NCBI GenBank assembly: GCA_021740045.1
Contig: JAIPAP010000008.1
Coordinates: 1-54,961 of the forward strand
Reading direction: 5' to 3'
DNA: 54,961 nt
Source of the DNA: Bacteroidales bacterium
GTDB taxonomy: Bacteria > Bacteroidota > Bacteroidia > Bacteroidales > JAIPAP01
The notes beneath the pieces are model-generated. The model did no database searches. It worked only from the letters and a program-made list of their open reading frames with translations, and had not been told where the DNA came from. Numbering within the stretch: the first letter of the stretch is position 1; each line of letters begins with the position of its first letter. Positions 23,200 through 26,154 of this stretch are shown in pieces. The position numbers and the translations under genes were made by a program.

Positions 23200-25089
23200 A
23201 TGGCAGAAAATTACAATGAAGATAGCATACGCTCGCTCGACTGGAAAGAACACATTCGCACCCGGCCCGGCATGTATATTGGAAAACTGGGCGACGGCGC
23301 TTCCCGCGACGATGGCATTTATGTCCTCATAAAGGAAGTGATCGATAACTCCATTGATGAATTTGTGATGGGATATGGGAAAACCATAGACGTTTCCATT
23401 GACGACCGCCAGGTTACCATCCGCGATTATGGCCGTGGTATGCCACTGGGCAAAGTCCTCGAGTGTGTATCGAAAATCAATACGGGTGCAAAATATGATT
23501 CTAAAGTGTTTAAAAAGGCCGTGGGCTTAAATGGTGTCGGTTCCAAAGCTGTTAATGCGCTGGCAAGTTATTTTAAGGCTCAAAGTGTTCGCGACGGTAA
23601 AACACGAATAATCGAATTTGAACGCGGTGTAGTAACCAGCGACAACAGCGTGGAGAATAATGACCTTACCCGGGGTAGCATTATTTCCTTTATTCCCGAC
23701 GCGGAAATATTCGGCGATTACCACTTTATCCCCGAATATATTGAAAAACAACTTTGGAATTACGTCTTCCTGAATAATGGATTGACCATACGTTTTAACG
23801 GCAAATCCTTCAAGGCAAAGAACGGTCTTAGAGACCTGCTTGAGAAGGTCATCAACGGCGGACAGGTGCTTTATCCCATCATTCATATTAAAGAAGATGA
23901 TTTCGAATGTGCATTCACGCACAGCCTGAAGCAATACGGTGAAGAATATCATTCCTTTGTTAACGGACAAAACACCACACAGGGCGGAACGCACCAAGCT
24001 GCCTTCCGGGAAGCCATCGTGAAAACAGTACGTGAATTTTATAAAAAAGATTTTGAACCAGGGGATGTAAGAGCATCTGTGGTGGCCGCCATCAGCATAA
24101 AAGTGCAGGAACCGGTATTTGAGTCGCAAACCAAAACCAAGCTAGGCTCACAGCATATGGAACCGGGTGGAACTACCATTCGCAATTATGTAAACGATAT
24201 CGTAAAGCGTAATCTCGACAACTACCTTCACATGAATCCCGAGGTGGCCGACTCGCTTTATAAAAAGATCCTTCAAAGCGAAAAGGAACGTAAGGAACTG
24301 GCCAACATTAAAAAGCTGGCAAGGGAAAGCACCAAGAAAGCCAGCCTGCATAACAAAAAGCTGCGCGACTGCCGCATACATTACAACAGTAATCATGAGC
24401 GCCGCCTGGAAAGCACCTTGTTCATTACCGAGGGGGATTCGGCCAGCGGTTCCATTACCAAATCGCGCGATGTGAACACGCAAGCGGTTTTCAGCCTTAA
24501 AGGCAAACCGCTCAATGCTTATGGCTTGAGCAAAAAAATTGTTTATCAGAACGAAGAATTCAACCTGATGCAGGCCGCCATCAACATTGAAGAAGGCATT
24601 GAAAACCTGCGCTACAACAATATTGTTATTGCCACTGATGCTGATGTGGATGGTATGCATATCCGTTTATTGCTTTTGACCTTTTTCCTGCAATTCTACC
24701 CTGACCTGGTGAAGGAAGGACATCTTTATATATTGCAAACACCCATTTTCAGGGTAAGAAATAAGAAAAAGACCAAATACTGCTATTCTCAAAAGGAAAA
24801 ACAAAAAGCTATCAATGAACTGAAAGGCAACCCGGAGATCACACGCTTTAAAGGATTAGGTGAGATATCGCCCGGTGAGTTCAAGCATTTTATCGGGCCT
24901 AATATGCGCCTGGAGCCCGTCATCCTGGAAAGTAATTCAAAGATACCGGAAATACTATCCTTTTATATGGGGCGCAACACCCCTGATCGCCAGACTTTTA
25001 TAATCGATAACCTCCGTGTGGAAGAAGATGTAGTTGAAAAACCTGAGATAGAGCTTCCCGAAGAAGAAAAGGTATCGGTGGTGGAATAG
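23200..25089 (+). CDS. parE: DNA topoisomerase IV subunit B (ParE)
   Basis: 629 residues, the usual ParE size in Bacteroidota. [27 protein letters not shown] and YGRGMPLG form the GHKL ATPase site, with [14 protein letters not shown] as the lid. QTKTKLGS holds the transducer lysine. The TOPRIM domain shows [10 protein letters not shown] and [12 protein letters not shown] with metal-binding Glu and Asp residues. With ParC it decatenates daughter chromosomes. ParE is favoured over GyrB because of its [18 protein letters not shown] start and length. No parC gene follows; the next 528 bp is a repeat-bearing gap. Confidence 0.93.
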
Positions 25090-25112
25090 CTATCTTGAAT
25101 AAACAAGGAAGT

Positions 25113-25195
25113 TTTACCCCTCCGGGGTAAAGGTGACAAGCCTCATTGCACCAGGCTACCGCCTGGTGTTAATGCCGTTTATCGCCTTCGGCGAT
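25113..25195 (-). repeat. Three-hairpin repeat element, copy 1 (minus orientation)
   Basis: Three perfect hairpins in plus order: TTTACCCC-tcc-GGGGTAAA (25113-25131), CACCAGGC-tacc-GCCTGGTG (25149-25168) and ATCGCC-ttc-GGCGAT (25181-25195). Read on the minus strand, the spacer between the last two is TAAACGGCATTAA, nearly identical to copy 2. Stems have diverged with compensating changes while the architecture is kept. Confidence 0.75.
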
Positions 25196-25397
25196 GGTAC
25201 ACACTGAAAAAGTGTAACTCTTATATCTGATGGCGCTTAATGGTATTAGCAATTAGTCAACCCCGAAAGTAAAAGCACAACCATATCAAGCATTATTAAA
25301 GTAAATCCCATCATCCAGCATTGATTTACATAATCCCCTGATTTGATAATCCTTCATTGTTTTAGGTGATGATGTAGTATGAAGACTGTATCCCGCA

Positions 25398-25481
25398 AAT
25401 CCCGTAGGGATTAAACAGCATTAACCACAGGCGGCAGCCTGTGGCAAAACATAGCCTTACCCTACAACTCCGAAGGAGTTG
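25398..25481 (+). repeat. Three-hairpin repeat element, copy 2 (plus orientation)
   Basis: Hairpins AATCCC-gta-GGGATT (25398-25412), CCACAGGC-ggca-GCCTGTGG (25425-25444) and CAACTCC-gaa-GGAGTTG (25465-25481), with spacer TAAACAGCATTAA. Hairpin order, loop sizes (3, 4, 3) and the GCCTT in the second spacer match copy 1 read in reverse. Confidence 0.75.
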
Positions 25482-25588
25482 AACCAGGCGGGCAGTATGT
25501 ATTATCATGATATCTATCCCATACCACCATCTGGTAATGTTGCTTTTTATTCCCCGATGGATGTTTTTCCTTATTGGTTTTATTTGAC

Positions 25589-25617: not shown

Positions 25618-26154
25618 ATGACGAATTATAAAGAGTTGTTTAAAAACGTCAATACCTTTGTGTTTGACTATGATGGTGTGATGACCGACGGGACTATATT
25701 GCTGATGCAAGACGGCGATGCCCTGCGCACCGCTAATGTAAAGGACGGTTACGTGATAAAACGGGCATTGAAGCAAGGATACCGTGTTGTGGTTATTACC
25801 GGTGGCCGATCGGTATCGATGGAAGAGCGCTTCAGGGAACTGGGCATCACTGAGTTTTTCCTCAACGCCCAAGACAAACTACAGGTGTTTCGGCAGTATC
25901 TTAACGATAACGGACTTGACGCCTCACAAGTTCTATATATGGGCGATGATATCCCCGATCTTTTGCCGATGATGGAAACAGGCGTTGCCACCTGCCCCTA
26001 CGACGCTGCCGAAGAGATTAAAGCCATCTCGCATTATATTTCAGATTATCACGGCGGTAGAGGCTGTGTGCGCGATGTGGTTGAACAGGTCATGAAAGTA
26101 CAGGGTAACTGGCTGGCCGATATCGACGATGCCAGTAAAACCCGGTCAACATAA
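25618..26154 (+). CDS. kdsC: 3-deoxy-D-manno-octulosonate-8-phosphate phosphatase (KdsC-type HAD)
   Basis: 178 residues, the KdsC length without a cap domain. The HAD motif I is FDYDGVMTDG with the nucleophile Asp and the acid Asp. VVVITGGRS is motif II and MGDDIPDLLPM is motif IV. The C-terminal Gly/Arg-rich HGGRGCVRDVVEQV is the KdsC tail that closes the tetramer active site. It releases phosphate from KDO-8-P for lipopolysaccharide core synthesis. It is followed 5 bp later by the UbiA-type gene. Confidence 0.9.
   Translation: MTNYKELFKNVNTFVFDYDGVMTDGTILLMQDGDALRTANVKDGYVIKRALKQGYRVVVITGGRSVSMEERFRELGITEFFLNAQDKLQVFRQYLNDNGLDASQVLYMGDDIPDLLPMMETGVATCPYDAAEEIKAISHYISDYHGGRGCVRDVVEQVMKVQGNWLADIDDASKTRST

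Follow-up and report, generated by a model that had tools for sequence, protein, structure and literature searches.

Three-hairpin REP-like elements in a Bacteroidales genome, probably cognate to a group of Y1/HUH transposases

The locus

The window (the whole analyzed stretch of 54,961 nucleotides from a Bacteroidales bacterium) contains two units of about 88 nt between a gene for a type II topoisomerase subunit B and a gene for a HAD phosphatase. By direct reading of the sequence, the units are located at 25111-25198 on the minus strand and 25398-25484 on the plus strand. Each consists of a short hairpin (S1), a linker, an 8-bp hairpin (L), a spacer and a second short hairpin (S2). The features, with the evidence for each in brackets, are:

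23200..25089, plus strand: upstream host gene, type II topoisomerase subunit B, parE/gyrB-like (NCBIfam, below the curated cut-off for each)
25111..25198, minus strand: unit B (copy 1), three-hairpin REP-like element (R1 89.7 bits, R2 76.1 bits)
25113..25131, minus strand: B hairpin S2, TTTACCCC-GGA-GGGGTAAA (sequence and covariation)
25149..25168, minus strand: B hairpin L, CACCAGGC-GGTA-GCCTGGTG, 8 bp, loop GGTA (sequence and covariation)
25169..25180, minus strand: B linker AAACGGCATTAA, with the conserved AA and TAA (TAR) motifs (sequence, consensus)
25181..25195, minus strand: B hairpin S1, ATCGCC-GAA-GGCGAT (sequence and covariation)
25199..25397, no strand: interval between units B and A (matches inside it to the rest of the genome reach only E 0.36 or worse)
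25398..25484, plus strand: unit A (copy 2), three-hairpin REP-like element, with AAC at its end (R1 91.1 bits, R2 86 bits)
25398..25412, plus strand: A hairpin S1, AATCCC-GTA-GGGATT (sequence)
25413..25424, plus strand: A linker AAACAGCATTAA (sequence, consensus)
25425..25444, plus strand: A hairpin L, CCACAGGC-GGCA-GCCTGTGG (sequence)
25465..25481, plus strand: A hairpin S2, CAACTCC-GAA-GGAGTTG (sequence)
25618..26154, plus strand: downstream host gene, KdsC/YrbI-type HAD phosphatase (TIGR01670, above cut-off)

The initial annotation had described two inverted three-hairpin copies with perfect stems and loops of 3, 4 and 3 nt, about 200 bp apart, and this holds: all three hairpins are free of mismatches in both copies. 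A shared linker, AAAC(G/A)GCATTAA, is likewise present in both. The spacer motif GCCTT, which the annotation attributed to both, occurs only in copy 2, while copy 1 has GGCTT. Its remark that parC might be expected in this gap does not bear on the nature of the elements. The copies point outward, and the gap of about 200 bp between them has no repeat above chance elsewhere in the genome. On the element strands, the folding z-scores are -2.9 and -5.0, the energies being better than those of shuffled sequence. No Rfam family matches the window element at gathering thresholds, and assignment to a known RNA family was rejected.

Copies in the same genome

A sequence search combined with a covariance model detected about 20 units on about 15 contigs of the 3.9-Mb genome. 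They belong to two subfamilies, A and B; relatives of unit B are found on contigs C21, C129, C28, C114 and C95. Five further loci have an A unit and a B unit facing each other across about 38 bp, an arrangement that resembles a REPIN. The window pair has the reverse order of these five facing pairs. Solo A units are also present, and two A units run into contig ends (C77, C78). No clean nested insertion into other repeats of this genome could be demonstrated.

Another dispersed intergenic repeat family has 27 matches in the genome (L018:1850-2040 and L024-L050), and several of these loci are immediately upstream of A units. The possibility that several A copies follow a larger mobile gene was considered and rejected: the conserved sequence of about 180 bp there belongs to this other family, and its reading frame contains stops.

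Structure and conservation across genomes

The element family was found in 29 of 60 searched genomes of the same order. Copies number about 20-70 per genome; their intergenic sites are unrelated, and most are flanked by tandem or convergent genes. Solitary copies show a weak tendency to have the same orientation as the gene to their left (15 of 19).

In an alignment of 48 dispersed elements, 97.3% of the stem cells are paired, and 18 of the 21 pairs show changes on both sides; shuffling gave means of 77.6% and 11.6 pairs, with none of 500 shuffles as high. In a second set of 99 elements, many of which adjoin transposase genes, the values are 97.7% and 19 of 21; both alignments were fitted to a model, which somewhat favors the structure. 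The covariation is well above shuffled and slid controls. Neither of the outcomes that would have contradicted the initial annotation (no further copies in the genome, or no compensatory stem changes) was observed. The search of this and other genomes with a covariance model, which had been suggested at the outset, yielded the copy numbers given above.

Some unpaired bases are nearly invariant in the 99-element consensus: AA follows S1 (100%) and S2 (99-100%), TAR precedes L (99% for T and A), and the loop of L ends in A (98%). The consensus feet are AAY, 3' of both S hairpins, and TAR, on the 5' side of L. This consensus has no GT[AG]G foot; copy 2 does contain GTAG, within its S1 loop and without conservation. 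Identity with a canonical GTAG-type REP was therefore rejected, the foot motif being missing.

The S-L unit forms tandem arrays with a period of 67-71 bp in some genomes, among them G036 and G035 (array loci L100, at G036:C37:1-500, L101 and L102). Interpretation as a CRISPR or a tandem array was nevertheless rejected, as the usual form is that of dispersed singles and pairs.

Association with Y1/HUH transposase genes

In element-rich genomes, several Y1_Tnp genes are flanked by elements. The encoded proteins have about 150 residues and the motif Y---Q--HH. They match Pfam Y1_Tnp and the NCBIfam IS200/IS605 transposase, and their relatives in PDB are the TnpA proteins of IS608 and ISDra2. On REP_Tyr_transpos, the element-adjoining proteins score 23-26 bits (cut-off 80).

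An alignment of three such proteins was searched against named genomes and yielded 79 loci, all with a Y---Q--HH frame. Most are from Bacteroidota; the others are from Ignavibacteriales, Calditrichia, Chlorobiota, Verrucomicrobia, Phycisphaerae, Hydrogenedentota and Parabeggiatoa. Model R2, which was trained on no transposase locus, has a match within 300 bp of 77 of the 79 genes (upstream in 66, downstream in 65, both in 54), a result that describes this protein subgroup, since the three queries were picked partly after elements had been seen beside them. Of 131 nearest elements, 118 are oriented toward the gene (binomial p 2e-22). The element-gene-element arrangement is strongly supported.

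Other Y---Q--HH loci have an R2 match beside only part of them, with different hairpin families beside others, and none of six loci with IS200-type genes devoid of the HH has the element beside it. Of the 60 genomes, 34 have a Y---Q--HH gene, and 26 of these contain elements, vs. 3 of the 26 without such a gene (Fisher 4.6e-7, not corrected for phylogeny). In high-copy genomes such as G036, which has 66 copies, the sole Y---Q--HH gene found has no detectable flanking element.

There are a few Y---Q--HH genes per genome, and locus comparison indicates that the position of the gene is kept between sister species (pairs from Verrucomicrobia, Pedobacter, Emticicia and Belliella). Together with its facing copies, the gene resembles an element of about 650 bp. 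At L226, the gene is surrounded by an alternating, BIME-like array of elements. At L236 (Marinilabiliaceae MAG16), the element-gene-element unit is seemingly tandem-duplicated, with elements repeating at a spacing of about 802 bp.

Y1 genes of the genome under study

As first noted, there is no transposase gene in the window; the four Y1 domains of this genome are all encoded on other contigs, and with models R1 and R2, none of them is flanked by the window element. One of the genes, L023 (G000:C155:28781-32053), is RAYT-like, scores above the NCBIfam cut-off for REP_Tyr_transpos and fits subclass 2.6 by motif. It is the one class-2-like gene in this genome. As a partner of the window element, L023 was rejected: it has no R1/R2 match and is flanked by a hairpin family of its own (CTCGCTACAAGCGAG ... 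GGCACGCGTTTGCAACGCGTGCC), with a similar layout of short hairpin, linker and long hairpin.

L020 and L021 (G000:C14, C45) are two Y---Q--HH genes, and L250 (C101) is a gene remnant. The hairpin families beside these three are of other types than that in the window (GGTGCGCTGCACC; AAGCCCGCAGGGCTT-TGATTATGGTAG; AAGCCCGTTAGGGCTT-ATATATTGGTAG). L250 is of the Y---Q--HH type by sequence; as a decayed cognate transposase it was rejected, as different hairpins adjoin it. In L022 (G000:C51:31301-34267), the Y1_Tnp domain is inside a long ORF resembling Eco57I/MmeI restriction-methylases, and several relatives have other long frames (881-1270 aa) with a Y1_Tnp domain. The element copies of this genome are probably orphans, or else their cognate gene is in an assembly gap; because the assembly breaks inside two copies, that gene may be missing from it.

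Unit of spread and turnover

In Belliella aquatica, 20 copies share their boundaries, the S1 stem at the start and GAAY at the end, and their flanks are unrelated. Thus, the single three-hairpin element is the spreading unit there. Of the forms seen in the Belliella copies that were read, the single unit is the most frequent; inverted pairs exist in the genome under study. No duplication is evident in the flanks of the Belliella copies, and there is no clear target-site motif around them, only a weak base bias.

For four elements of Belliella aquatica, the two flanks were joined and used as queries against seven further genomes of the genus. At site L260, G066 and G070 carry the element; it is lacking in G067, G068, G069 and G071, where the matching flanks are close together (the empty site was aligned base by base in G068; the sequence adjoining it has diverged). 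Two other tested sites are occupied in several species. At site L272, G067 keeps only apparent element ends. Presence and absence at one shared site fits element turnover; the absence could be due to loss or to lack of insertion.

Interpretation and alternatives

We interpret the window copies as non-autonomous REP-like elements from a family cognate to the Y---Q--HH group of Y1/HUH transposases, and assign a probability of about 85% to this reading. Each copy would serve as a single-stranded DNA substrate in which three hairpins (S1-linker-L-spacer-S2) are accompanied by invariant unpaired bases. The transposase gene would be located between two inward-facing elements, and its product is predicted to recognize the hairpins and unpaired feet in single-stranded DNA, to cut near the element ends and to rejoin these elsewhere. 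Single elements and inverted pairs would in this way spread through intergenic space, while the gene would stay in place and be vertically inherited. That the copies are structured mobile units, as the initial annotation had considered, agrees with the dispersed intergenic copies, the inverted pairs, the L226 array and the Y1-flanking relatives in other genomes. The parallel which it drew to REP/BIME elements and RAYT transposases applies in kind, but not to the canonical class-2 RAYT, as the partner has Y---Q--HH and the GT[AG]G foot is missing.

Movement of canonical REP/BIME elements by a class-2 RAYT would fit the dispersal of hairpins between genes, with inverted pairs and arrays of alternating orientation, and L023 is a RAYT-like gene in this very genome. 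However, AAY and TAR, rather than a GT[AG]G foot, are conserved among the unpaired bases, L023 has a different flanking hairpin family, and the genes that do adjoin the elements are of the Y---Q--HH type, far below the REP_Tyr_transpos cut-off. We consider this origin highly improbable. It is very unlikely that the copies derive from a MITE or an IS200/IS605 relic, the moving unit being the whole element-gene-element block or an inverted pair left by deletion. The 650-bp appearance of the gene with its facing copies and the pairs that face each other across about 38 bp would suit such a relic, but the Belliella copies that were read are most often single units, the gene has few copies and keeps its locus between sister species, the two window units are directed outward rather than inward, and no such element adjoined the IS200-type genes that lack HH.

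Least probable of all is a structured RNA, a terminator or an mRNA-stabilizing element that is kept by the host and spread by descent only. Strongly covarying hairpins are what such an element would have, and the positions between tandem or convergent genes, with the weak strand preference of solitary copies, fit it too. Against this stand the 20-70 copies per genome with sharp ends and unrelated flanks, the facing pairs around a transposase gene, the variable presence between sister species and the lack of an Rfam match. The elements may still have a secondary role for the host.

Comparison with known systems

The proteins found here have about 148 aa, DH[IV]H, WQ and Y---Q--HH, and were assigned to subclass 1.2 by motif and length rather than by the profiles of the authors who defined it. 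Subclass 1.2 is listed with 148 aa, DH[IV]H, WQ and YIKNQKEHH, for Cyanobacteria and Bacteroidetes, and with REP "no" (PMC6006769, Table 1). Length, motifs and the Bacteroidetes range agree (PMC6006769), whereas the genes described here have flanking repeats, and their subgroup is found also in other phyla.

Like the REPtrons of class 2 (PMC6006769, PMC8266576), the window elements are intergenic hairpin repeats that form inverted pairs and alternating arrays and flank a low-copy Y1/HUH gene. Unlike them, the unit has three hairpins, about 90-100 nt and no GT[AG]G foot, and the transposase has Y---Q--HH rather than Y--NP. In a broad sense, the system would count as a REPtron: in other genomes, the Y1 gene is flanked by inverted dispersed repeats, and judged from locus position, it is low-copy and vertically inherited. 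Experiments on REPs have shown that cleavage is strand-specific, occurs close to the hairpin and is guided by the GTAG foot (PMC8266576); we infer that TAR and AAY may play a similar guide role in window-type elements.

Subclass 2.6 of Bacteroidetes is flanked by "atypical secondary structures" (PMC6006769). It resembles the present system in occurring in Bacteroidetes and in having hairpins without GTAG that are repeated at other places in the genome, but differs in its Y motif (YIH[QN]NP), and L023, which is of that kind, has its own hairpin family. IS200/IS605 elements (IS608, ISDra2) share the Y1/HUH catalytic domain by sequence and the hairpins adjoining the gene. Here, however, three-hairpin units face the gene on both sides, gene copy number is low and gene position is orthologous; the many near-identical mobile gene copies with subterminal hairpins that are typical of IS200/IS605 (subclass 1.1) were not found.

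No description of the element was found in the open-access papers searched. We think it likely that these three-hairpin AAY/TAR elements are a phylum-wide, apparently undescribed REP-like class and the cognate substrates of the Y---Q--HH transposases (subclass 1.2), so that this "REP-less" class would be a REPtron. Other hairpin families beside such Bacteroidota genes may share these enzymes.

Significance

Subclass 1.2 Y1 transposases have so far been described without a substrate, and a cognate repeat provides a defined DNA for biochemistry. The suggested recognition code, AAY and TAR, differs from GTAG. The finding accounts for a recurrent kind of hairpin repeat in the intergenic DNA of Bacteroidota, and it is an independent case of REP-like populations that persist alongside a domesticated transposase.
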